This document shows, piece by piece, positions 2,040-60,605 of a stretch of 64,000 bases of DNA. Origin of the DNA: Halorubrum xinjiangense (lineage in GTDB: Archaea > Halobacteriota > Halobacteria > Halobacteriales > Haloferacaceae); NCBI RefSeq assembly GCF_900102375.1, contig NZ_FNBO01000001.1, positions 310,001-374,000 on the forward strand, given 5' to 3'. The position numbers were made by a program, and so were the translations under genes. The first letter of the stretch is position 1; each line of letters starts with the position of its first letter. The notes beneath the pieces were generated by a model that worked only from the letters and a program-made list of their open reading frames with translations, had not been told where the DNA came from and ran no database searches.

Positions 2040-2515
2040 TCCGCGTAGTCGTTTATAAACAGCGAGCGGTAGCGTCGGCAGCGTCCAAGGCAGTTTATAA
2101 ATGGATGACGGCGCTGCGGCGAACATCTCCAAAGCCCCTGCCGCTCGATTATAAACGTTTGACCGTGGATCGGCAGCGGACACCTCCAAAGCCCCAGTCG
2201 CGAGAACTCGCGCGACTCGCTGTCGTTCGAAAGGCGCTTCGCGCCTTTCGTGATGACGAGAGAGCTTCGCTCTCTCGAACCACGCTCCTCACTCGGTCGC
2301 TCCGCTCCCTCGTTCCGGTGCTTACGTCGTCGTGCTTCGTTCTCGCGACTGCCCCTTTGAGTCCCACCTCGCACCGCGCAGCACCGCACCTCACGCCTCC
2401 CCAGCCTCGTCGGTCGCCGTCGCTTCGCTCGGCGACCGACTCCCTCGCGGGCGGTTCGCGGCCGCCGGTGGCGGCCGCTCACCGGCGCGCCACCGCGGTT
2501 ATTTATAGATAGCGT
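2040..2515 (-). repeat. Structured intergenic element, copy A
   Basis: This fills the space between two convergent genes and is read on the minus strand. It starts with GTGGCGCGCC near 2500 and has hairpin 2 (GTCGGTCGCC/GGCGACCGAC), the conserved GAGGCTGGGGAGG and GGGACTCAAAGGGGCAG blocks, and a long terminal stem (AGTCGCGAGAAC paired with GTTCTCGCGACT). It then has tail units starting at 2197 and 2140, exactly 57 bp apart, and TTTATAAA boxes near 2152, 2098 and 2056. Copy A carries two extra hairpins inside the terminal stem (around 2230-2280) that other copies lack. No credible protein is encoded. Mechanism and function are unknown. Confidence 0.75.
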
Positions 2516-7403: not shown

Positions 7404-7760
7404 CGCAGTGGCGCGTGCCTGCGAGCGGCCGCCCCCGGCGGCCGTGAGTCAGCACGCGCGAGGGACGCCGCGAACGCCCGAAGGGCGTGAGCGGCGAGGC
7501 TGGGGAGGTTTGAGGTGCGGTTGCGGTGCTGTGCGGGGCGGGACACAAAGGGGCAGCCGGGAGGCGGCCGCAGGCGAAGTAAGCACCGCAGGGAGCGAAC
7601 GGAGTGAGCGACTGAGGGGCACAGCGAGCGTGCGGCCGCCTCCCGGCTGGGGCTTTGGAGGTGTCCTCCGCCGATCCGCAGTCGACCCATTATAAACGAA
7701 TGACTGGGGCTTTGGAAGGATTCGCCGTCGCCCACGAGGGCGACGACTGATGACCAATTT
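7404..7760 (+). repeat. Structured intergenic element, copy B
   Basis: Plus-oriented copy. GTGGCGCGTGCC (from 7408) pairs with GCACGCGC to close hairpin 1; inside it GAGCGGCCG and CGGCCGTGA form a second helix flanked by GA/GA. Hairpin 2 is GCCGC...GCGGC around ACGCCCGAAGGGCGT. Then come the conserved GAGGCTGGGGAGG and GGGACACAAAGGGGCAG blocks and the terminal stem AGCCGGGAGGCGG / CCGCCTCCCGGCT. Tail units start at 7648 and 7705 (57 bp) with TTATAAA near 7691-7697. It lies between the 5' end of the MFS gene and the islet at 7773. Confidence 0.75.
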
Positions 7761-15413: not shown

Positions 15414-15820
15414 TGCGATGGCGTGCGCCTGCGAGCGGCCGGAGCGAAGCGGAGGCCGCGAGTCAGCACGCGCGAGGGAGTCAGTCGCCGTAGCGAAGCG
15501 GAGGCGACTGACGAGGCTGGGGAGGTGTGAGGCTGCGGTGCTAAGCGGTACGGGCGGGACTCAAAGGGGCAGCCGTGAGGGCGAAGGCGCGCGACGTAAG
15601 CACCGGAACGAGGGAGCGAAGCGACCGAGTGAGGAGCGCAACGAGCGTACCGAGCCCTCACGGCTGGGGCTTTGGCGGTGTTCATCGCCTATCTGCTCGC
15701 GTTTATTTATAAGCAAGCGGCTGGGGCTTTGGAAGTGTTCCCTGCCGATCCACAAGCAGCCATTTATAAACGATCGACCGCCACGGTGGCGACGCTCACA
15801 CCCGATCCACTGCCCACTAT
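15414..15820 (+). repeat. Structured intergenic element, copy C
   Basis: Between convergent genes. Hairpin 1 contains GAGCGGCC...GGCCGCGA; hairpin 2 is GTCAGTCGCC/GGCGACTGAC. The conserved blocks GAGGCTGGGGAGG and GGGACTCAAAGGGGCAG are intact, and the terminal stem AGCCGTGAGGGC pairs with GCCCTCACGGCT. Tail units start at 15664 and 15721 (57 bp), with TTTATTTATAA near 15712 and TTTATAA at 15763-15769. A third, degenerate unit would place its box at 15820-15826, exactly over the stop codon of the minus-strand gene ending at 15821. Confidence 0.75.
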
Positions 15821-20413: not shown

Positions 20414-20881
20414 ATGGCAAGCGTGAGCGACATCCACAATTTCAGCGACCAGTTCCAGTACCAACTCCGGAAGCTCGACGGCGCGGACATCGACGAGCGC
20501 GACCGAAAGGCGATCAAGGAGCTCATCCGCTACCAGGACACCCAGCGGAACCTCGCCGCGAGCACGAATGTCAACAACTGCTCCGACCTCCGTCTCAGCG
20601 CCGAGCGCGCCGACACCCCGCTGGTCGACATGGAACGGTCGGATGTCGACGAGCTGCTCTTCCGGTACAAGCACGAGCGCGAGATGGCGGAAGGAACGCT
20701 CCGGAACTACCGGAAGGCCTTTCGGAAGTTCTTCCGCTACCACGACCGCGAGTGGGCCGAGAACATCGAGATCGGCGCGATCCCGGACCAGGAGGTCGAC
20801 GGCGCGCAGACGCTGGCGTGTGAGGATTCTAGACTCCGAAGGCATAGTCCCGGGCGGATTCGAACCGCCGTCAATGGCTGA
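20414..20881 (+). pseudogene. Integrase N-terminal fragment, int(N), overlapping tRNA-Gln
   Basis: 155 codons from ATG 20414. It shows a SAM-like, phage-integrase N-terminal core-binding domain: DERDRKAIKELIRYQDTQRN, LVDMERSDVDELLFRYKHER, MAEGTLRNYRKAFRKFFRY. The catalytic C-terminal domain (R...H-x-x-R...Y) is absent. The last about 12 codons (PGRIRTAVNG) are the complement of the tRNA-Gln 3' half, so the frame ends inside the tRNA gene. This is the arrangement of SSV-type integrases, whose attP lies within int and whose integration splits the gene. It is therefore a scar of an integrated virus or plasmid; the int(C) half is not in this window. Confidence 0.8.
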
Positions 20882-20995
20882 CTTCGGGCATCCGACGGGC
20901 GTTCTGGCAGGAACGACCGACAGCCGCGTGTGAGCCGCAAACGCGGACGGATTCCCTCCAAAGGCCATTATGATTGGCCACTACACCACGGGACT
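20845..20995 (-). tRNA. tRNA-Gln(UUG) with a 78-nt intron
   Basis: Read on the minus strand, the acceptor stem AGTCCCG (20995-20989) pairs with CGGGACT (20852-20846), with discriminator A at 20845. The T arm is GGCGG-TTCGAAT-CCGCC. The anticodon stem ATGGC pairs with GCCAT around the loop CTTTGGA, giving anticodon TTG (Gln). Exon 1 is 20995-20958, exon 2 is 20879-20845, and the intron of 78 nt lies between positions 37 and 38, the canonical archaeal site. Haloferax tRNA-Gln(UUG) also has an intron there. No CCA is encoded. It serves as attachment site for the remnant to its left. Confidence 0.9.
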
Positions 20996-35591: not shown

Positions 35592-35823
35592 TGTGCGGTG
35601 GCGCGTGCCTGCGAGCGGCCTTTTGGCCGCGAGCAGCACGCGCGAGGGAGTCAGTCGCCGGAGCGAAGCGGAGGCGACTGACGAGGCTGGGGAGGAGTGA
35701 GGTTGCTGTGCTGTGCGGTCGGGTGGGATTCAAAGGGGCAGCCGCGAGGGCGCAGTAGGCGACGTAAGCACCGCAGCGAGCGAAGCGAGCGAGGAGCGCA
35801 ACGAGCGTACTGCGCCCTCGCGG
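35592..35823 (+). repeat. Structured intergenic element, copy D (hairpin part)
   Basis: The clearest copy. Hairpin 1: GCGCGTGC pairs with GCACGCGC, enclosing GAGCGGCC-TTTT-GGCCGCGA (GA/GA flanks). Hairpin 2: GTCAGTCGCC/GGCGACTGAC around GGAGCGAAGCGGA. Conserved blocks GAGGCTGGGGAGG and GGGATTCAAAGGGGCAG. The terminal stem AGCCGCGAGGGCGCAGTA pairs with TACTGCGCCCTCGCGGCT, enclosing CGACGTAAGCACCG and GGAGCGCAACGAGCG. The stem sequences differ between copies while pairing is kept, so selection on RNA or single-strand DNA structure is likely. Located between the 5' end of purL and the 3' end of the next gene. Confidence 0.78.
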
Positions 35824-36108
35824 CTGGGGCTTTGGAGGTGTTCGCCGTCGACCTCCAATCAACCATTTATAACCGAGCGGCTGGGGCTTTGGAGGTGTTC
35901 GCCGTCGACCTCCAATCAACCATTTATAACCGAGCGGCTGGGGCTTTGGAGCTGTTCGCCGTCGACCTCCAATCAACCATTTATAACCGAGCGGCTGGGG
36001 CTTTGGAGCTGTTCGTCGTCGATCCGTACTCAATTAGTTATAAACGAGCGACTGAGCCTCAGAGCTGTTCGCTGCTTGCTCAGTAAGGGTATTTATAAAC
36101 GACGAACC
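35824..36108 (+). repeat. Tandem 57-bp tail of element D, five units
   Basis: Units start CTGGGGCTTTGG at 35824, 35881, 35938, 35995 and CTGAGCCTCAGA at 36052, each exactly 57 bp apart. Units 1-3 contain GGAGGTGTTC or GGAGCTGTTC, GCCGTCGACCTCC and AACCATTTATAACCGAGCGG and are nearly identical; units 4-5 are diverged. TTTATAA or similar occurs at 35866, 35923, 35980, 36037 and 36092. A last TTATAA at 36125-36130 overlaps the stop codon of the next gene. The box resembles an archaeal TATA element and is palindromic. Confidence 0.85.
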
Positions 36109-50315: not shown

Positions 50316-51182
50316 ATGGGAACCATCGGATTCATCGGCGGCAGCGGCATCTACGAGGCGCTCCCTCTCAACGACGTGCGGGAGGTCGAGTTCGACACGC
50401 CGTACGGCGAGCCGAGCGACGCGGTGACGATCGGCGAGTTCGGCGACACGGGCCGCGAGGTGGCGTTCCTCCCGCGGCACGGCTCGGACCACGGCGTCTC
50501 GCCGACCGACCTGCCGTACCGCGCCAACATGTACGCGTTAAAGAAGGCGGGCGTCAGCCACATCTTCGCGTCGAACGCGGTCGGGAGTTTAAAAGAGGAA
50601 CTGGAGCCCGGTACCCTCGTCGTCCCGGACCAGATCTACGACCGGACGAAGGGCCGCGACCTCTCCTTCTACGGCGACGGGGTCGTCGTCCACCAACCGT
50701 TCGCGGACCCGTACAGCCCCGAACTCGTCGACCACCTCACCGAGGCGGCGGAGTCGGCCGCGCCCGAGGACACGAACGTCGTGAAGGGCGGCACCTACGT
50801 CTGCATCGAGGGGCCGCAGTACTCGACGCGCGCGGAGTCGGAGTTCTACAAGTCCCAGGGCTGGGACCTGGTCGGCATGACCGCGATCCCGGAGGCGAAG
50901 CTGGCCCGGGAGGCCGAGATCGCGTACGCGACGATCGCCGGCGTCACCGACTACGACGTCTGGAAGGAGGACAGCGAGGTGACGCTCGAAGAGGTGCTCG
51001 AAAACGCCGAAAAGAACCAAGCGGCGATCAAGGCCGCCGTCGAGGAGGCCGTGCGGACGCTGCCCGAAGACCTGGCGTGCGAGGCGCACACCGCGCTCGA
51101 AGGAACCGTCAACACGCCGACCGAGGCGATTCCGGAGGAAACGCAGGAGCGCGTCGAGCCGCTGCTGGGCGATTACTTATAA
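50316..51182 (+). CDS. mtnP: S-methyl-5'-thioadenosine phosphorylase
   Basis: 288 aa, ATG at 50316 with TTATAAGTAG at 50286-50295 about 25 bp upstream (leaderless). IGFIGGSGIYEALPL, FLPRHGSDHGVSPTDLPYRA, NMYALKKAGVSHIFASNAVG, YVCIEGPQYSTRAESEFY and LVGMTAIPEAKLAREAEIAY are the MTAP/PNP family motifs. It cleaves methylthioadenosine to adenine and 5-methylthioribose-1-phosphate (polyamine and methionine salvage). The stop codon forms part of TTATAAATAG at the start of element E. Confidence 0.93.
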   Translation: MGTIGFIGGSGIYEALPLNDVREVEFDTPYGEPSDAVTIGEFGDTGREVAFLPRHGSDHGVSPTDLPYRANMYALKKAGVSHIFASNAVGSLKEELEPGTLVVPDQIYDRTKGRDLSFYGDGVVVHQPFADPYSPELVDHLTEAAESAAPEDTNVVKGGTYVCIEGPQYSTRAESEFYKSQGWDLVGMTAIPEAKLAREAEIAYATIAGVTDYDVWKEDSEVTLEEVLENAEKNQAAIKAAVEEAVRTLPEDLACEAHTALEGTVNTPTEAIPEETQERVEPLLGDYL

Positions 51183-51620
51183 ATAGACGAGGCAGTGCGG
51201 TGGCGCGTGCCGGTGAGCGCCGCACCGCGGCGCGAACCGCACGCGCGAGGGACGCCGTGAGCGACGGGCGACCGAAGGGAGCCCGGAGCGAACGGCGAGG
51301 CTGGGGAGGCGTGAGGTGCGGTCGCGGTGCTGTGCGGGGCGGGACTCAAAGGGGCAGCCGCGAGGCCGCAGTAGGCGACGTAAGCACCGCAGCGAGCGCC
51401 GCGAGCGAGGAGCGCAACGAGCGTACTGCGGCCTCGCGGCTGGGGCTTTGGAGGAGTCCGTAGTCGATCCGGCAGAGTCTATTTATAAGTAAACGGATGG
51501 GCTTTAGAAGTGTTCTCTACGGGCGCAACGACGCACGGCCGAGCGGCCGGGATTCGGGAGCGTCTGTGTATCGCCGAGCAGCGCTGGACTATTTATAAAC
51601 GAGCGGTCGAGGATTCGAGA
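51176..51620 (+). repeat. Structured intergenic element, copy E
   Basis: Begins at the mtnP stop, where TTATAAATAG could serve as promoter about 24 bp before GTGGCGCGTGCC (51200). Hairpin 1 has GGTGAGCGCC...GGCGCGAACC, with GA/GA flanks; hairpin 2 GCCGT...ACGGC. Conserved blocks GAGGCTGGGGAGG and GGGACTCAAAGGGGCAG are intact, and the terminal stem AGCCGCGAGGCCGCAGTA pairs with TACTGCGGCCTCGCGGCT. Tail units start at 51440 and 51497 (57 bp); later units diverge and end at TTTATAA near 51592. It is the only copy pointing towards the 5' end of a downstream gene on the same strand (ncsA, 51719). Confidence 0.75.
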
Positions 51621-51718
51621 GCGTCCCGATAAGTGTCGCTTACGGCTCGTCTCGCGACCGCTTCGTTCACGTAGGCGGCCCGAAACGGGTATCCCCGCGC
51701 GACCGCAAGCCGACATCG

Positions 51719-52717
51719 ATGGAGTGCGACAAGTGCGGGGCCGACGCGATCCACCACGCCGCCTACTCCGGGGCGCACCTCTGTGGCGAACACCTCCGGC
51801 AGTCGGTCGAGAAGCGCGTGAAGCGTCGGGTCCGCGAGGACGGCCTTCTCGATCCGGACGCGACGCCTGACGACCCCGACCGCTGGGTGATCGGGCTCTC
51901 GGGCGGGAAAGACAGCGTCGCGCTGACGCGGATATTAGACGACGTGTTCGGGAAAGACCCCCGCGTGGAGATGCTCGCCTTAACGATCCACGAGGGGATC
52001 GAGGGGTACCGCGACGCCAGCGTCGACGCCTGCGTCGAGCTGGCCGACGAGCTCTCCTTGCGCCACGAGCTCGTCTCCTACGAGGAGGAGTTCGGCGTCC
52101 GGATGGACGACGTCGTCGAGGACGACCCCGAGAACATGGCGGCCTGCGCGTACTGCGGTGTGTTCCGCCGTGACCTCTTAGAGAAGTACGCCGCCGAGTT
52201 CGACGCCGACAAGCTGCTCACCGGCCACAACCTCGACGACGAGGCCCAGACCGCGATGATGAACTTCCTCGAGGGCGACGTGCGACAGGTCGCGAAACAC
52301 TTCGACGCCTCGCTCGGCCCCTTCGACGAGCGCGAGGCGACCGACGCGTTCGTCCCGCGCGCCAAGCCCCTCCGCGACGTACCCGAAAAGGAAATCGCCT
52401 TATACTGCCACGTCCGCGACCTCCCCACGCACATGGCCGAGTGCCCGCACGCCGAGGAGGCGTACCGCGGCGAGATCCAGTCGACGATCCACGAGCTCGA
52501 GGCGAACCACCCCGGCGCGCGCCACTCGATCATGGCCGGCTACGAGGAGCTGTCCGCGCTCGCGGCCGACGCCTACCGCGGGGGCGACGGGGACGACGCC
52601 GACGGCAAAGAAGACGGCGAGAAATCCGCGCTCGGCGAGTGCGAGCGCTGCGGCTCGCAGACGAGCCGCGACGTCTGCCGGAAGTGCCGGCTGCTGGAGT
52701 CGATCGAAGCCGTCTAA
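51719..52717 (+). CDS. ncsA: tRNA 2-thiolation protein NcsA
   Basis: 332 aa, ATG at 51719. N-terminal zinc finger (CDKCGADAIHHAAYSGAHLC), PP-loop ATPase SGGKDSVAL (about 62-70), ACAYCGVFRRDLLEKYA (catalytic CxxC), DKLLTGHNLDDEAQTAMMNF and a C-terminal zinc ribbon CERCGSQTSRDVCRKC. It is the archaeal Ncs6/TtuA-type enzyme that makes 2-thiouridine at tRNA position 34, with sulfur from a SAMP ubiquitin-like protein. The domain order is complete and it looks functional. Confidence 0.9.
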   Translation: MECDKCGADAIHHAAYSGAHLCGEHLRQSVEKRVKRRVREDGLLDPDATPDDPDRWVIGLSGGKDSVALTRILDDVFGKDPRVEMLALTIHEGIEGYRDASVDACVELADELSLRHELVSYEEEFGVRMDDVVEDDPENMAACAYCGVFRRDLLEKYAAEFDADKLLTGHNLDDEAQTAMMNFLEGDVRQVAKHFDASLGPFDEREATDAFVPRAKPLRDVPEKEIALYCHVRDLPTHMAECPHAEEAYRGEIQSTIHELEANHPGARHSIMAGYEELSALAADAYRGGDGDDADGKEDGEKSALGECERCGSQTSRDVCRKCRLLESIEAV

Positions 52718-52793
52718 GCGGGCGAAAAATCGTTCCGCGGACAGCGTCGAAAACGCGGGTTCGTCGCCTGTTCTCCGGGGAAACGGGTGCGAC

Positions 52794-54017
52794 TCAGCGG
52801 ATGACGTCGAGCCCGTTGTTCTTCTCGATCGGGTCGCTGCCGCCGTCGGACTCCCAGCCGCGGTCGGTGCCGCCGGAGACCGCCGGCTCGCCTCGGTTGC
52901 CCCCGCTCTCGTTCGCCTCGGCCGCCCGCTGGCGCGAGTCGCCGAGGTCGTCGCCGTTGACCGCGGCGCGGGACTTGTCCGCCTGCTTCTGGGTGGAGGG
53001 GCCGAGCACCTGCGCGCTCTGGACGCCCGTCATGATCGCCATGACGCGCACCTTCCCCTTGTACTCCTCCTGGATGCGGGCGCCCCAGATCACGTTGGCG
53101 CTCGCCTCCAGCCGCTCGGTGATGTTGTTCGCGATCCCCTCGGCCTCCTTCAGCGTGAGGTCCGGGCCCCCCGTGATGTGGACGAGCCCGCCCGAGGCGC
53201 CGCGGTAGTCGACGTCGAGCAGCGGGTGGTTCATCGCGTCGTTGACCACCTCCTGGGTCTTGTTCTTGTCCTGCGTCTCGCCGACGAGCATGACCGCGAC
53301 GCCGCCCTGGTTCATGATCGTCGACATGTCCGCGTAGTCGAGGTTGATGAGGCTCGGCTGGGTGATCGTCTCCGAGATCCCCTTCACCGTCTCCGCGATG
53401 ATCTGGTCCATCACGGAGAACGCCTTCCCGATCGGCAGGTTCGGAACGTAATCGAGCAGGCGGTTGTTGTCGAGGACGATGATCGAGTCGGCCTCGTTGC
53501 GGAGGTCTTCGAGCCCCTCCTCGGCTTTGACCGTGCGGGCGCGCTCGACGTTGAACGGCGTCGACACCATGCCGACGACGATGGCGCCCTGCTCTTTGGC
53601 GATCTTCGAGACGACCGGCGCCGCGCCGGTGCCCGTGCCGCCGCCCATCCCGGCGGTGACGAAGACGAGGTCGGCGTCGCCGAGCACCTCCTTGATCGTG
53701 CCCTGGGCCATCTCGGTGGCGCGCTCGCCCATCTTGGGGTCGCCGCCGGCGCCGAGCCCCTGCGTGAGCGACTTACCCACGAGGATCTTGGTGTCAGCCT
53801 CGATCATCTTGAGGTGCTGTTTGTCCGTGTTGATGGCGACGGTGTCGGCGCCGTCGACGCCGATGTTGTACAGCCGGTTGACCGTGTTGTTCCCGGCGCC
53901 GCCGGCACCGACGATGACGATCCGGGGGTCCCCGAACTCGTCGTCGTCCATGTCGACGTCCATGTCCCGCTTCTCCGCTTCCGCGTTGTCGAGGGCATCC
54001 TGAACGAGATCTTGCAT
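52794..54017 (-). CDS. ftsZ2: Cell division protein FtsZ2
   Basis: 407 aa, ATG at 54017. The N-terminus ([19 protein letters not shown]) and C-terminal motif NGLDVIR match FtsZ2 rather than FtsZ1 as I recall the Haloferax proteins. GTPase motifs: [38 protein letters not shown] (tubulin signature), [13 protein letters not shown] and the T7 loop NLDYADMS. In haloarchaea FtsZ2 acts with FtsZ1 in constriction of the division ring. It follows cdrS with a 4-bp gap, so the two are co-transcribed. Confidence 0.93.
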
Positions 54018-54021
54018 CAGT

Positions 54022-54201
54022 TTACACCTTCGCCCAGTTGCGGTTGCGGCCGCGCTCGTCGCGCTCGCCGTCCTGTTCGTTCAACATGTCGCGGACGGCC
54101 GACCGGATCGCCTCGCTCCGGTTCGGGAACTCGCCCGTCTCCACCATCTGTTCGACCTCGTCGATCTGCTGTTTCGGGATTCGTAGTGTCACACGCTCCA
54201 T
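54022..54201 (-). CDS. cdrS: Cell division regulator CdrS (ribbon-helix-helix)
   Basis: 59 aa from ATG 54201. [20 protein letters not shown] followed by [20 protein letters not shown] is a canonical ribbon-helix-helix DNA-binding domain; the C-terminus is short and charged ([16 protein letters not shown]). Known from Halobacterium as CdrS, which controls ftsZ2 expression and division. The gene is directly upstream of ftsZ2. Confidence 0.92.
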
Positions 54202-54417
54202 TGGTATTCCCCCGGTAAGACGGCGAACACGCGACGCGTGTGTCTTACAGCGCGAAACCGCCCGACTGCGGGGCGACACCCCGCATCGGACGCCTGCTGT
54301 AAGACGACCGTCTTACGCAACTGAAGTCACCGAGGCTACCATTATAAAACTATCGGAGGCTGTAAGACAGAGCGTGAAAACGCCCGAGTAGTCGCGTATA
54401 CAGGCCCCTACAGCCGA
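54202..54417 (-). promoter_or_regulatory. cdrS-ftsZ2 promoter with GTAAGAC operator motifs
   Basis: Minus-strand TATA box TTTTATAAT (54341-54349). Around it are GTAAGAC or its complement GTCTTAC at 54215-54221, 54242-54248, 54299-54305, 54310-54316 and 54362-54368. The pair 54299/54310 forms a perfect inverted repeat with a 4-bp spacer downstream of the TATA box; 54362 is just upstream of it. One more copy lies inside cdrL (54629-54635). CdrL is reported to bind this operon's promoter; assigning these motifs to it is inference. Confidence 0.7.
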
Positions 54418-55023
54418 TTACGGATCTTTCAGGACGTCCGCAGCCGGGGTCCGACGCCCGCAGCTAGGGCAGAACGCCCAGTCGGTGCGGAGCTCGTCGC
54501 CGCACTCACAGAAGGCCCTGTGGGATTGTTTCTCTCCGCAGTTCGGGCAGTATACGTGGTCAGACGGGACGATTTCGCCACATCCGCCGCAAGCGTTTTC
54601 GCGCGTTTGCGCGCCCGGACTGGCGTCTGTCTTACGCGTATTCGTATCCACCTCGCCGGCCGTCTCACGCGTCACACGCACGTCGTCGTCCCGGTCGTCG
54701 GAGTCGGCGCTCGGGGCGTCGAGCGTGACGTTTACGTTGATTTCGCCGGCGTTTCCGGGCGTATACGCCCGCGTCGCTGCGCCGCTCGCCGGACCGAGCC
54801 GCTCGTCTAACGCGGCGTCGAGCCGCTCCGCGATCAGCTCGTCGACGCGTTCGGCGAGGACGTCGTCGACGCTCCCGGCCGCCGCGTCGGACGCGTCGGA
54901 CGCGCTCCCCTCCCCGTCGAGGTGCGTCCGGAGCGCCTCCCGCATCACCTCGCTTTTGGAGGCGTCACACGCTTCCAGCCGGTCGACGAGATCGTCGTCC
55001 GCCCGGAAGGTGATCTTGCTCAT
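54418..55023 (-). CDS. cdrL: Cell division regulator CdrL
   Basis: 201 aa, ATG at 55023. N-terminal ribbon-helix-helix (MSKITFRADDDLVDRLEACD, KSEVMREALRTHLDG), a disordered Ala/Asp linker, and two C-terminal zinc ribbons (CGGCGEIVPSDHVYCPNC and CECGDELRTDWAFCPSC). It pairs with CdrS in regulating ftsZ2. The gene contains a GTCTTAC motif (54629-54635) on the sense-opposite strand. Confidence 0.9.
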   Translation of the reverse strand: MSKITFRADDDLVDRLEACDASKSEVMREALRTHLDGEGSASDASDAAAGSVDDVLAERVDELIAERLDAALDERLGPASGAATRAYTPGNAGEINVNVTLDAPSADSDDRDDDVRVTRETAGEVDTNTRKTDASPGAQTRENACGGCGEIVPSDHVYCPNCGEKQSHRAFCECGDELRTDWAFCPSCGRRTPAADVLKDP

Positions 55024-55181
55024 ACCGAAGGGGTATCCCCGGTCAGTACAAGTATCTTCCCCTGTCGTCTGACACGTTTCACGACGCCGAGATGTTCAGC
55101 GGACGGCGGCAGAATCGTGCGGGTTGGTCACACGTGTGTCTGACGCAGATTTATACGCGTCGCGCGAGCATGCGTGTGTAT

Positions 55182-55652
55182 ATGAGTAACCGCGTCGAGG
55201 ACCTCGAACGGCAGGTCGCGGAGCTACAGGCGGCGGTCAACGGGCTCACCGAGGAGCTCGTCGAGATGAAAGAGCGCGTCCGACAGCTGGAAGACGAGCG
55301 GTCGGTCGCGGTCGAGGCCGGCGCCGCCGGGGCGACGGCCGGCTCCGAGACGGCGGACGCCACGGCGGACGACGCGGCGAGCGACCGACCTTCGGGGGAC
55401 GACGCCGCGGAGGCGGCCGGCGGCGAGCGGACGACCCACTCCGACGACCACGTCGACGTCTTCGAGTCCGTCGAGGAGCCGTCCGACGGCGCCGAAGCGG
55501 AGGCGGCGACGGCGGACGACGCGGGCGAGGGAGACGACGTCATCGTCCCCGAGCAGTCGGCGACGACGCCCGACGCCGACGCGGCGGCCGAGGAGTCCGC
55601 CGAGGACGACGAGGGCGAGTCGAGCGAGGGCGACGACATCATCGTCGCGTAA
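55182..55652 (+). CDS. Coiled-coil protein upstream of smc
   Basis: 156 aa from ATG 55182 (MRVYMSN start at 55170 is possible). An N-terminal coiled coil (about 3-43; VEDLERQVAELQAAVNGLTE, MKERVRQLEDERSVAVEA) and a long acidic disordered tail ending in two similar motifs, EGDDVIVPEQ and EGDDIIVA. It lies 16 bp before smc and is probably in its operon. The resemblance to DUF7518-like haloarchaeal proteins is from memory. It may be an SMC partner; not proven. Confidence 0.75.
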   Translation: MSNRVEDLERQVAELQAAVNGLTEELVEMKERVRQLEDERSVAVEAGAAGATAGSETADATADDAASDRPSGDDAAEAAGGERTTHSDDHVDVFESVEEPSDGAEAEAATADDAGEGDDVIVPEQSATTPDADAAAEESAEDDEGESSEGDDIIVA

Positions 55653-55668
55653 GCGGTCGTCAGACCAC

Positions 55669-58600
55669 ATGCACATCACTGAAGTCGTTCTGGACGGGTT
55701 CAAGAGCTTCGGGCGAACGACGAGAATCCCCTTTTACGAGGACTTCACCGTCGTCACCGGCCCGAACGGCTCCGGGAAGTCGAACATCATCGACGGCGTG
55801 CTGTTCGCGCTCGGGCTCGCCCGCACCCGCGGGATCCGCGCCCAGAAGCTCACCGACCTCATCTACAACCCCGGCCACGACGACGGCGAGGCCGCCGACG
55901 GGCCGAGCGAGGCCTCCGTCACGGTCGTGCTCTCCAACGAGGACGGCACCCTCGACCGCTCGCAGGTGGTCTCTGCGGCCGGCACGGAGAACGTCGGCGA
56001 CGTCTCCGAGATCACGATCAAACGGCGCGTGAAGGAGACCGAGGACAACTACTACTCGTACTACTACCTCAACGGCCGGTCGGTGAACCTCTCTGACGTC
56101 CAGGACCTGCTCGCGGCCGCGGGCGTCACCCCGGAGGGGTACAACGTGGTGATGCAGGGCGACGTCACCGAGATCATTAACATGACCCCCTACCAGCGGC
56201 GGGGGATCATCGACGAGATCGCGGGCGTCGCGGAGTTCGACGAGAAGAAGGAGGCGGCCTACGAGGAGCTCGACACGGTCGAAGACCGGATCGGCGAGGC
56301 GGACCTCCGCATCGGCGAGAAGCAGGACCGGCTCGACCAGCTCGCCGACGAGCGCGAGACCGCCCTCCAGTACCAGGATCTCCGCGACGAGCTCGAGGAG
56401 TACCGCGGGTTCCGCAAGGCCTCCGAGCTCGAGGAGAAGCGCGACGCGCTCGCGGGCGTCGAGGGCGACATCGACGAGGCCGAGACCGACCTCGAAGGAC
56501 TCCGCGAGGAGCTCGACGCCAGACAGGGGAAGCTCACTCGCTTGGAGGAAGACTTAGCGGACCTCAATCACGAGATCGAGACGAAGGGCGAGGACGAACA
56601 GATCCAGATCCGCTCGGAGATCGAAGAGATCAAAGGCGAGGTCTCGCGGCTGGAGGACAGGATCGAGTCGGCCGAGTCGCGCGCCGAGTCGGCCGAGAAC
56701 GACCGGCGCCAGGCGTTCGTCCAGATAGACAGGAAAGAGGAGAAGATCGAGGAACTCGACGCGGAGATCCGCGAGACGAAAGTGGAGAAGGCGTCGGTGA
56801 AGTCGGAGCTGGCGACGAAGCGCTCCAAGCTGGCCGACGTCGAGGCCGAGATCGAGGGGGCCGACACCGAGTTCGACGAGCTGAAAGCCGAGCTGTCGGA
56901 GAAGAAGGAGGCGATCGAGACGCTCCGCGAGGAGAAAAACGAGACGCAACGCGAGAAGGACCGGCTGCTCGACGAGGCCCGCCGCCGCTCGAACGCCGTG
57001 AGCGAGGCCCGCGAGGAGTTAGAGGCGGCCCGCGAGTCGCTCCCGGAACACAAGGCGCGGATCTCCGAGCTGAAAGGCGAGCTCGACAAAGCCGAGAAGA
57101 ACCAGGCGACCATCGAGGACGCGGTCGCCGACCTGTTCGCCGAGAAGGCCGAAAAGCAGGAGCGGTTAGAGGATATCGAGGGGACGCTGCGCGAGAAGCA
57201 GAACGAGTACGCCAAGCTGGAGGCGGCCGCCGACCAGCGCGGCGACGCCTCCTGGCCCCGGGCTGTCACCGAGGTGAAGAACGGGGGCATCGACGGCGTC
57301 CACGGCGCCGTCGGCGAACTGGGGTCGGTCGAGGCCGAGTACGCCGAGGCCTGCGAGACCGCCGCCGGCGGCCGGCTGGCGAACGTCGTCGTCGACGACG
57401 ACGGCGTCGGCTCGACCTGTATCGACTACCTCAAACAACGGAACGCGGGGCGGGCGACGTTCCTCCCCATCACGAAGATGGACGACCGGAGCCTGCCGCG
57501 GAAGCCCTCGCTGCCGGGCGTCGTTGACTTCGCGCGAAACCTCGTCGACTACGACGCCGAGTACGAGTCGATCTTCTCGTACGTGCTCGGCTCGACGCTC
57601 GTCGTCGAGGACATGGCGACCGCCCGCGAGCTGATGGGCGACTACCGGATGGTCACGCTCGACGGCGACCTCGTCGAGAAGTCCGGCGCGATGACCGGCG
57701 GCTCCGGCGGCGGCTCCCGCTACTCGTTCACGAAGTCCGGCGGCGGGAAGCTCGAACGGCTCGCGACCGAGATATCCGACCTCGAAGACGAGCGGCAGTC
57801 GGTCCAGTCAGAGATCGACGCGCTCGACGACGACATCGAGGACGCGCGCGACCGCAAGGCCGACGCGGCCGAGCGCGTCCGGTCGCTGGAGGCGGACGTC
57901 GAGCGCGCCGAGGACGACCTCGCCGAGGCCGAAGCCCGGATCGAGGAGCTGGAGGCCGAGCTGGAGGAGCTTGAGGCCGAACGCGAGTCGGTCGACGCGG
58001 AGATGACGGCCTTAGACGAGCAGCTCGCGGAGACCGACGCGGAGATCGACGAGGTCGCCGCCGAGATCGACGAGATCGAGGCCGAGCTCGCCGACTCGAA
58101 GATCCCGGAGCTCTCCGAGCGCGCCGACGAGATCCGCGCCGAGATCGGCGAGTTGGAAGGCCGGATGGACTCGCTCGACGGGCGGATAAACGAGCTGGAG
58201 TTAGAGAAGGGGTACGCCGAAGACGCCGTCGACGACCTCCACGACGACGTCGAGGAGGCGCAGAACGCGAAGGCGGAGGCCGAGGAGGCGATCGCCGACC
58301 ACGAGGCCGCGATCGAGGAGAAGGAGGCGGAGTTAGCGGAAAAGCAGGAGGCGATCGCCGACTTAGAGGAGGAGCTCACGGAGCTGAAATCGGAGCGCGA
58401 GGAGCTCCGCGAGGAGATCCGGGAGGCGACCCGGAAGCGCGACGAGCAGCGGTCGCTCGTCTCGGAGGCCGAGTCCGACCTCTCCGATCTCACCGACCGC
58501 CGCGACCGCCTGGAGTGGGAGATAGACGAGCTGGAGTCGCAGGTGGGCGCCTACGACGCCGACGAAATTCCCGACCTCGACGAGGTGGAGTCGCGGATCG

Positions 58601-59253
58601 AGGCGCTCGAGTCGGAGATGGAGGCGCTCGAACCCGTGAACATGCTCGCGATCGACGAGTACGACGAGGTCCAGGCGGCCCTCGACGAGCTTCAGGAGCG
58701 CCGCGACGTCCTCGTCGAGGAGCGCGACGCCATCGAGGAGCGCATCGAGGGGTACGAGGCGGCGAAAAAGGAGACGTTCATGGAGACGTTCGAGTCGATC
58801 AACGACCACTTCCGGGACATCTTCGCGCGGCTCTCGGCCGGGACCGGCGAGCTCGTCTTGGAGAACCCCGAGGACCCGTTCGAGGAGGGGCTGACGATGA
58901 AGGCACAACCCGCGGACAAGCCGGTCCAGCGGCTCGACGCGATGAGCGGCGGGGAGAAGTCGCTCACCGCCCTCTCCTTTATTTTCGCCGTCCAGCGGCA
59001 CAACCCCGCCCCGTTTTACGCCTTAGACGAGATCGACGCGTTCCTCGACGCGGTCAACGCCGAGCGCGTCGGCGAGATGATCGAGGAGCTGGCCGCGGAC
59101 GCGCAGTTCGTCGTCGTCGGGCACCGCTCGGCGCTTTTAGAGCGCTCGGACCGCGCCATCGGCGTCACGATGCAGGGCGACAACCTCTCGGCGGTGACCG
59201 GGATGCAGTTCGGCGACGACGCGGACGAGGAAGGGGTGAGCGCGGATGACTGA
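55669..59253 (+). CDS. smc: Chromosome segregation protein SMC
   Basis: 1194 aa. N-terminal ATPase half (VLDGFKSFGRTTRIPFYEDF, Walker A GPNGSGKSNIIDG), long antiparallel coiled coils (about 170-505 and 680-1025), hinge domain (about 515-665; GVHGAVGELGSVEAEYAEAC, MTGGSGGGSRYSF), then the C-terminal half with the signature LDAMSGGEKSLTALSFIFAV and Walker B FYALDEIDAFLD. SMC dimers with ScpA compact and separate chromosomes. It overlaps scpA by 8 bp. Confidence 0.96.
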   Translation: MHITEVVLDGFKSFGRTTRIPFYEDFTVVTGPNGSGKSNIIDGVLFALGLARTRGIRAQKLTDLIYNPGHDDGEAADGPSEASVTVVLSNEDGTLDRSQVVSAAGTENVGDVSEITIKRRVKETEDNYYSYYYLNGRSVNLSDVQDLLAAAGVTPEGYNVVMQGDVTEIINMTPYQRRGIIDEIAGVAEFDEKKEAAYEELDTVEDRIGEADLRIGEKQDRLDQLADERETALQYQDLRDELEEYRGFRKASELEEKRDALAGVEGDIDEAETDLEGLREELDARQGKLTRLEEDLADLNHEIETKGEDEQIQIRSEIEEIKGEVSRLEDRIESAESRAESAENDRRQAFVQIDRKEEKIEELDAEIRETKVEKASVKSELATKRSKLADVEAEIEGADTEFDELKAELSEKKEAIETLREEKNETQREKDRLLDEARRRSNAVSEAREELEAARESLPEHKARISELKGELDKAEKNQATIEDAVADLFAEKAEKQERLEDIEGTLREKQNEYAKLEAAADQRGDASWPRAVTEVKNGGIDGVHGAVGELGSVEAEYAEACETAAGGRLANVVVDDDGVGSTCIDYLKQRNAGRATFLPITKMDDRSLPRKPSLPGVVDFARNLVDYDAEYESIFSYVLGSTLVVEDMATARELMGDYRMVTLDGDLVEKSGAMTGGSGGGSRYSFTKSGGGKLERLATEISDLEDERQSVQSEIDALDDDIEDARDRKADAAERVRSLEADVERAEDDLAEAEARIEELEAELEELEAERESVDAEMTALDEQLAETDAEIDEVAAEIDEIEAELADSKIPELSERADEIRAEIGELEGRMDSLDGRINELELEKGYAEDAVDDLHDDVEEAQNAKAEAEEAIADHEAAIEEKEAELAEKQEAIADLEEELTELKSEREELREEIREATRKRDEQRSLVSEAESDLSDLTDRRDRLEWEIDELESQVGAYDADEIPDLDEVESRIEALESEMEALEPVNMLAIDEYDEVQAALDELQERRDVLVEERDAIEERIEGYEAAKKETFMETFESINDHFRDIFARLSAGTGELVLENPEDPFEEGLTMKAQPADKPVQRLDAMSGGEKSLTALSFIFAVQRHNPAPFYALDEIDAFLDAVNAERVGEMIEELAADAQFVVVGHRSALLERSDRAIGVTMQGDNLSAVTGMQFGDDADEEGVSADD

Positions 59254-60325
59254 CGAGGACGACGGCGCCGCCGACGGCGGCGTTCCGGACCTCGACCTGA
59301 CGAGCGAGCGCGACGGGGCGGACCCCTTCGCGGACGACGCCCCGGGAGGCGACGGACCCGACTCGGCCGACGAAGCCGACGCGGGCTCGGCCGGCGGTTC
59401 CGGCGCCGACGAAGCCGACGCGGACATCGCCGACAAAGCCGATGCGGACGTCGCCGACGCTTCCGACGCGGACTCGACAGACGAACCCGACCCGGACGTG
59501 CCCAATGTTACCACGCCGGGCGAGGCCGACGACGACGAGGTCGAGCCCGTGGAGCTCCTCGTCCAGCTCGCCGAGGAGGGCGAGATCGAGCCGTGGGATA
59601 TCGACATCGTCCAGGTGACGGACGCGTTCTTAGAGAAACTCGACGAGACGGACCTCCGGACGACCGGGCGGGCGCTGTTCTACGCCAGCGTCCTGCTCCG
59701 GATGAAAAGCGACGGCATGCTGGCGGACGACGACGAAGAGACGGAGCCCGAGCCGGAGCCGTGGGAGGTCGCGATGGAGGGCGGCGCGCCCGACCCGGCC
59801 GACGGCGACTTCGACCCCGTCGACAAGCTGGAGGCCGAGATGGACCGCCGGCTCGACCGCAAGAACACCCGCGGGTCGCCGGAGACGCTCGACGAGCTGG
59901 TCCGCGAGCTGCGCGAGGCCGAGCGCGGCTCGTGGTGGAAGGACTCCCGCGAGTACGACACCTCCGAGTCGCCCCACGGCCACGCCCGCGGCACGCAGAC
60001 GCTCGACTACCACGCCGGCGACGAGTTCCGGCAGGACGGGGAGCCGACCGCGGGCGAGGCGACCGACCGCACCCACGACGAGGACATCGAGGAGGTGATA
60101 GTGGAGATCGACACCGCCCTCAGGACCCACTTCGACCGCGGGCGCACGGAGGTCCTGTTCGCGGAGATCGAGACCGCGGGCGGCCGCCCGTTCATAACGT
60201 ACCTCGCGCTGCTTTTCATGGCCCACCGCGGCTCGGTCCGGCTCCAGCAGGACGACCTGTTCGGCGACCTGTGGGTGAAGGACCCGACGGCGATGACCGG
60301 CGAGTCGGAAGCGATCGCGGACTAA
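59246..60325 (+). CDS. scpA: Segregation and condensation protein ScpA (kleisin)
   Basis: 359 aa, ATG at 59246 inside the smc end. A disordered acidic N-terminus with four Asp/Ala segments (about 1-85) precedes the kleisin N-domain PVELLVQLAEEGEIEPWDID, then IVQVTDAFLEKLDETDLRTT and GRALFYASVLLRMKSDGML, which binds the SMC neck. The C-terminal winged helix (IVEIDTALRTHFDRGRTEVL, FITYLALLFMAHRGSVRLQQ) binds the SMC head. ScpB is not adjacent. Confidence 0.93.
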   Translation: MTDEDDGAADGGVPDLDLTSERDGADPFADDAPGGDGPDSADEADAGSAGGSGADEADADIADKADADVADASDADSTDEPDPDVPNVTTPGEADDDEVEPVELLVQLAEEGEIEPWDIDIVQVTDAFLEKLDETDLRTTGRALFYASVLLRMKSDGMLADDDEETEPEPEPWEVAMEGGAPDPADGDFDPVDKLEAEMDRRLDRKNTRGSPETLDELVRELREAERGSWWKDSREYDTSESPHGHARGTQTLDYHAGDEFRQDGEPTAGEATDRTHDEDIEEVIVEIDTALRTHFDRGRTEVLFAEIETAGGRPFITYLALLFMAHRGSVRLQQDDLFGDLWVKDPTAMTGESEAIAD

Positions 60326-60374
60326 CAGCTTTTCGAGAACACAGCAGCAGGTCTCCAGTACGTGTGTTCTGCTA

Positions 60375-60605
60375 CATCGACGGTGAACACCGCCAAATCC
60401 CCAGCCATTCGTTTATAAATAGCCGACAGCTGATCGGTGACACCGACCTCCAAAGCCTCAGCCGTGAGTCCCGCCCGGCACGGCGACCGCACCGCAGCCT
60501 CACGCCTCCCCAGCCTCGCGGCTCCCTCCGCTTCGCTCCGGTCGCCGCGTCCCTCGCGCGTGCGACTCGCGCCCTCCGGGCGCTCGTCGGCACGCGCCAC
60601 CGTGG
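60375..60605 (-). repeat. Structured intergenic element, copy F (shortened)
   Basis: Read on the minus strand, starting GTGGCGCG at 60600. It keeps hairpin 1 (GACGAGCGCCC/GGGCGCGAGTC), hairpin 2 (GCGGC...GCCGC) and the block GAGGCTGGGGAGGCGTGAGG. The block AAAGGGGCAG and the whole terminal hairpin are missing; GGGACTCACGGCTGAGGCTTTGG joins the two sides directly. Tail units start at 60461 and 60404 (57 bp), with TTTATAAA near 60412-60419 facing the end of scpA. Confidence 0.7.

Follow-up and report, generated by a model that had tools for sequence, protein, structure and literature searches.

The window, i.e., the whole 64,000-nucleotide stretch of Halorubrum xinjiangense DNA analyzed here (contig C1:310001-374000, in a genome totaling 3.26 Mb), contains six repeated elements (A to F; Table 1) that had been noticed in a first-pass annotation and were each read here on their own strand. 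The PurL encoded next to element D shows 92–94% identity to the proteins of Halorubrum ezzemoulense, H. trapanicum, and H. distributum. A tRNA gene of 151 bp, a length suggesting that it is probably intron-bearing, was identified by Rfam at positions 20845–20995 of the window on the minus strand. The element family itself had no Rfam match at the gathering score, and no description of it was found in the literature searched, which consisted mainly of open-access papers; it appears to be undescribed so far. Sequence amounting to approximately 1.2 Mb of the 3.26-Mb genome was examined stretch by stretch. Heads were collected by an iterated profile search of 850 kb, which yielded 58 heads; 48 head copies make up the alignment used below (alignment A1).

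Table 1. Elements in the window and component features of element D.
Feature	Position	Strand	Remarks
Element A	2073..2495	-	head 2198-2495; unit starts 2197, 2140; two-hairpin insert within hairpin III
Element B	7404..7760	+	units at 7647, 7704
Element C	15415..15776	+	units at 15664, 15721
Element D	35596..36108	+	three-hairpin head and tail array; between purL and next gene
D hairpin I	35600..35645	+	GGCGCGTGC C TG CGAG CGGCC tttt GGCCG CGAG CA GCACGCGC; alignment A1
D hairpin II	35650..35682	+	GTCAGTCGCC ... GGCGACTGAC; tip is the GCGAAGC mini-hairpin motif
D unpaired conserved segment	35683..35702	+	GAGGCTGGGGAGGAGTGAGG; core of module X, present in many haloarchaeal genera
D hairpin III	35731..35834	+	CAAAG-GGG-CAGCCGCGAGGGC... 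/ ...GCCCTCGCGGCTG-GGG-CTTTG; 3′ arm ends inside unit 1
D tail unit 1	35824..35880	+	begins as hairpin III 3′ arm; TTTATAA at 35866-35872
D tail unit 2	35881..35937	+	identical to unit 1
D tail unit 3	35938..35994	+	98% identity to unit 2
D tail unit 4	35995..36051	+	81% identity to unit 3; older
D fifth unit, degenerate	36052..36108	+	start reads CTGAGCCTCAGA; TTTATAAA at 36092-36099
Element E	51176..51599	+	border TTATAA; head from 51198; unit at 51440; further units degenerate
Element F	60348..60605	-	short head without hairpin III; units at 60461, 60404

Structure of the Head

Full heads share hairpin I, hairpin II, an unpaired GAGGCTGGGGAGGnGTGAGG segment, a G-rich stretch, and hairpin III (alignment A1, 48 copies). 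Hairpin I of element D contains a single bulged C and a tandem G·A step, and the arms of hairpin III read CAAAG-GGG-CAGCCGCGAGG and CCTCGCGGCTG-GGG-CTTTG across the alignment. In every full tail, hairpin III takes its 3′ arm from the first CTGGGGCTTTGG, and the 57-bp unit makes up the 3′ module of a multi-hairpin element that is dispersed between genes. Double-sided changes were found at 25 of the 41 counted pairs in the aligned heads; paired cells amounted to 98.4%, as compared to 85.9% after shuffling, and the covariation score was 0.342, as compared to 0.121 for shuffled data and at most 0.041 for slid structures. In Halobaculum and Natrinema, the hairpin III helix reads GAAAGGGGCC.../...GGGGGCTTTC, which represents compensation of the whole helix. 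Compensatory changes can also be generated by template switching without selection (PMC8794818).

Mismatched intermediates presented G·T and A·C at a ratio of 48:14 (109:80 when shuffled; p = 0.002); this preference for G·T indicates that the strand as written folds and that only one strand is structured. Among loops closed by a C-G pair, C(GNA)G was found 73 times (5.3 expected), C(GNRA)G 8 times (3.3 expected), and UNCG 0 times, as counted with a simple hairpin finder against a mononucleotide shuffle; the GNA excess may partly stem from inserted two-hairpin modules and from kinship among copies. GCGAAGC occurs 95 times on the plus strand of heads and its complement GCTTCGC 7 times, as compared to 13 and 13 in the window overall. 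GNA loops are known as the stable loops of DNA rather than of RNA. Such mini-hairpins have been documented to be exceptionally stable as DNA (PMC10527192). The DNA-type loops give moderate support to single-stranded DNA as the probable folding form; tolerance of G·T and the conserved internal loops would fit RNA as well.

Short heads lacking most of hairpin III, in which the GGGACTCA region leads almost directly into the first unit, were observed in the window (60462–60605), elsewhere in the same genome (C1:73533), and at L074:1996. Two-hairpin modules of approximately 49 nt (CAGCGAGGGACCGAAGGTCCCTCTGGCAGCCGGCGCGTAGCGCCGGCGA and kin) are present in either orientation within varied hairpin tips and joints of heads (window 2205–2290; L048:2390-2696, L066:5983-6278, L069:13975-14266, L071:11427-11724, L077:4081-4392, and L044:5347-5607) and resemble the small mobile repeats that target PATE palindromes (see below). 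Outside the genus, the module of hairpin III (GGGACTGAAAGGGG...GGGCTTTC) was found separate from that of hairpins I/II (L147, L152, and L277); there, the two modules sometimes face each other with GCTAGC-type sequences between them.

Length and Duplication of Tail Units

The 12-mer CTGGGGCTTTGG was found 15 times in the window with up to two mismatches (2.7 expected; 100 shuffles, maximum 7). Steps of exactly 57 bp separate the unit starts listed in Table 1 for elements A, C, and F and for the first four units of element D. The first-pass annotation had reported a 57-bp distance between the first two units of all six elements, which is real but only approximate in element E, where the second unit, near 51497, is one base short (ATGGGCTTTAG); in element B the spacing is indeed 57 bp, although both starts lie one base off the reported 7648 and 7705. 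Five starts in 57-bp steps had been described for element D, of which the fifth (36052) is exactly in step but degenerate in sequence. Contrary to the same annotation, this period is not invariant, nor does a series of units follow every element: 57 bp accounted for 83 of 96 steps in pieces of the same genome (51, 54, 56, 60, and 66 bp for the rest), distinct units in congeners span 48–69 bp, and 25 of 77 head-bearing arrays in the same genome have a single unit; about one third of elements contain one unit only.

Lengths of distinct units other than 57 bp are divisible by three in 42 of 44 cases (48, 51, 54, 60, 63, 66, and 69 bp), an excess that is inflated by shared descent of a few length classes, although several classes differ in sequence. 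Four identical units at C2:276894-277060 show that a length of 51 bp is common to the whole local array, and in G149 and G105 the altered length, 48 or 54 bp, is again array-wide; since a whole array takes on the changed length, the period is inherited by copying. A coding repeat, considered on account of the 3-bp length steps, was rejected, as stops occur in 28–112 of 152 units per frame, conservation is flat by position modulo three, the frame between head and tail is random, and no consistent open frame is present.

Adjacent canonical units were at least 95% identical in 10 of 29 cases, whereas none of 1035 pairs of first units from different elements reached this level. Among the 28 arrays with at least three units, mean identity was 0.906 for the head-proximal pair and 0.593 for the distal pair; the proximal pair was the more alike in 25 arrays, with two ties and one array showing the reverse. 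Stepwise duplication, one of the possibilities raised in the first pass, is borne out by both comparisons, and it is well supported that extra units are local tandem duplicates with the newest on the head side; the period is therefore the length of the copied unit. The tail unit presented no covariation and hence no sign of being structured.

The 5′ arm of hairpin III (CAAAGGGGCAGCCGC) is able to pair with the start of any unit (GCGGCTGGGGCTTTG), from which we infer that duplication may proceed by slippage at this hairpin. If the 5′ arm paired with the GCGGCTGGGGCTTTG of a later unit instead of that of unit 1, one whole unit would be looped out and then copied or lost. By eye, the base before unit 2 does not visibly change along with its would-be hairpin III partner, which counts against slippage, and the model leaves the 3-bp quantized unit lengths unaccounted for.

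TATA-Like Boxes and Element Borders

TTTATAA occurs 22 times in the window (0.13 expected). This palindrome, described in the first pass as ending most units, is far above chance and strongly kept in units of the 57-bp type, but internal units can lack it: in other arrays they bear CACGTAnnnCCGAGCGG or GCGTAGTACCGAGCGG and no TATA box, whereas the last unit usually carries TTATAA. This order, with TATA-less internal units followed by a TATA-bearing last unit, was seen in two other species. TATA-less units of 48, 51, and 54 bp were observed in the same genome (C2:276843-277060) as well as at L319, L324, and L332. Of 113 arrays, 74 carry a TATA box after their last unit, as compared to 1 of 111 control stretches located 300 bp further on, and TTATAA is found 8–15 nt upstream of the head in 37 of 80 heads under a strict criterion. 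TTATAA is best described as a border motif at both outer edges of the element.

At locus E, the upstream gene ends TAC TTA TAA (window 51174–51182), its stop codon overlapping TTATAA; with so high a GC content, TTA would be expected to be an uncommon codon. Across 30 alleles of this locus, the stop reads TTATAA in most alleles where the element is present, the element has the reverse orientation in three species, in which the same TTATAA serves as its tail border, and the element-free alleles present TTATAA three times and CTGTAA three times. Other element-free sites are without TTATAA; the boundaries of element-free alleles are too diverged, or the gene order too changed, to show a clean insertion site.

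Distribution and History

The unit motif had 288 matches in the genome (9 for a reversed-pattern control) and 19–328 in each of 29 congeners, while other genera of the family were at background, except for one genome (G014). Module X had 168 matches (1 in the control), with 14 to 194 across congeners; elements number about 170–200 per genome. The hairpin I/II module with CTGGGGAGGnGTGAGG matched in 115 of 293 sampled genomes, representing 44 of 87 genera of the order, although a lone match in a genome may be due to chance. All 56 elements whose neighborhood was recorded are intergenic, with the flanking genes (E denoting the element) arranged as >E< (19), <E< (16), >E> (14), and <E> (7); no strand bias along contig C1 was obvious by eye.

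All six window elements have counterparts at the same place and in the same orientation in two genomes (G132 and G095), with five, four, and one found in G100, G013, and G129, respectively, and element D adjoins purL in most of 30 congeners. Orthologous heads are 0.73–0.85 identical, which is not above the level for non-orthologous heads, and the highest identity between any two of 79 heads from the same genome is 0.906. With near-identical copies absent and orthologues no closer than paralogues, nothing points to recent spread; the copies stay in place and retain their fold while their sequences diverge rapidly. Since some copies that differ elsewhere have identical hairpin II sequences, hairpins are perhaps exchanged between copies by gene conversion. 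No element match was found in the phages of the collection; its plasmids had five. Compared with G129, the segment between elements E (plus strand) and F (minus strand), window 51200–60600, appears to be inverted, and the breakpoints coincide with the two elements, suggesting recombination between inverted copies.

Interpretation and Comparison with Known Systems

The core of the first-pass observation is real, and its reading shifts to a structured element whose 3′ module is duplicated stepwise and in a polar manner. The account that we favor, and hold to be on balance probable, is a dispersed intergenic multi-hairpin family with polar tail duplication that forms a structured single strand and is old and mostly immobile. 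The element would act as a structured single strand, more likely of DNA than of RNA; by analogy with REP/BIMEs or PATEs, it may offer DNA-handling proteins a site for landing or processing, and the family would now be maintained in place. No partner protein emerged: no element lies within 1.5 kb of any of the six IS200-type (Y1) transposase loci. It is doubtful, if conceivable, that these are specifically chromosomal elements of folded single-stranded DNA, bounded by TTATAA, with a spacer-free tail lengthened leader-proximally via hairpin-arm exchange. A multi-copy structured ncRNA, with selection acting on the RNA fold and the TTTATAA boxes on either side serving as promoters, is an unlikely reading that nonetheless deserves weight, as covariation with strand asymmetry, conserved unpaired segments, and TATA boxes close to both ends would all fit it. 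Archaeal transcription starts approximately 27 nt from the TATA box, however, and the upstream box, about 14–15 nt before the head, would place a normal start inside hairpin I; the loops are of the DNA type rather than GNRA or UNCG, and Rfam silence and some 170–200 divergent copies per genome also argue against an ncRNA. The first pass also raised a promoter array or phased protein binding, in which the 57-bp period itself would be functional. The strong conservation of the TATA-like palindrome in many units and the conserved GGTGTTCG blocks read approximately 27 bp from it on both sides are in line with this, yet it is very unlikely: one-unit elements are common, gene starts show no link and neighboring genes lie in every arrangement, internal units can be TATA-less, a start from the upstream box would hit hairpin I, and lengths of 48, 51, 54, and 57 bp, within an overall span of 48–69 bp, preserve no helical phase and no constant size.

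That the element is still mobile, as a non-autonomous PATE- or IS200/IS605-like element inserting at palindromic TTATAA with Y1 transposase supplied in trans and with tail units as repeated right ends, is improbable. The TTATAA at both borders, the reversed orientation at locus E in other species with TTATAA at the edge, the three element-free alleles that retain it, the Y1 transposases encoded in the genome, and the wide range of module X copy number among congeners (14 to 194) speak for mobility, but no near-identical copies exist (maximum of 0.906 among heads of this genome), positions are conserved across species, plasmids are almost and phages entirely free of elements in the collection, other element-free sites are without TTATAA or read CTGTAA, and the distance from TTATAA to the head varies from 8 to 15 nt. 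A CRISPR-like integrase copying the leader-proximal repeat, to which polar growth by the head and a degenerate distal unit would conform, is hardly credible at all in view of successive units that are near-identical copies without acquired spacers. TnpB guide-RNA ends were also considered and rejected, as the sole TnpB insertion seen near purL (L090) ends, by eye, in unrelated sequence.

Among known systems, the PATEs (palindrome-associated transposable elements) of Haloquadratum walsbyi are likewise haloarchaeal, transposase-free, heterogeneous, and of high copy number, lack terminal inverted repeats, have palindromes near their ends, and are targeted by small hairpin repeats (PMC3119063). 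The Halorubrum elements share the absence of terminal inverted repeats and the palindromes near the termini and are too short to encode a transposase; they differ in being position-conserved across the genus, with three covarying hairpins and tail arrays. The near-terminal palindromes of PATEs also resemble those of IS605-type transposons, and PATEs show strain-specific insertions with an empty site and no target duplication; for the Halorubrum elements, the element profile was empty around the Y1 loci, and the element-free alleles had diverged boundaries or altered gene order. Bacterial REP/BIME sequences with their RAYTs also comprise hundreds of intergenic imperfect hairpins in tandem or mosaic arrangements (PMC2817692, PMC3733652), whereas the Halorubrum elements are archaeal, approximately 300 nt long with three hairpins, and without a linked RAYT. 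Where a REP is a palindrome of 20–40 bp with a GTAG/CGTC tag and a RAYT gene is flanked by repeats, the hairpins here measure approximately 33–100 nt with no tag at their feet (alignment A1, by eye), and no element was found beside Y1-type genes. IS200/IS605 ends resemble the elements in that the hairpins inside the borders are asymmetric and strand-specific and in that each border carries a short motif; the elements, however, have no transposase ORF and no adjoining Y1 gene, and their borders lie at variable distance. CRISPR arrays likewise grow beside a leader-like head and have an old, degenerate distal repeat, but the Halorubrum arrays are without distinct spacers, their units being plain duplicates that are near identical over their full length.

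If the favored account is true, Halorubrum chromosomes can each carry approximately 170–200 position- and structure-conserved elements that are absent from Rfam, with core modules in at most half of the sampled genera of the order. Such a family would lend itself naturally to the study of structured single-stranded DNA in archaea and of hairpin-driven repeat expansion, and would allow one to ask whether dispersed repeats are maintained for the sake of the host or by their own mutational dynamics.
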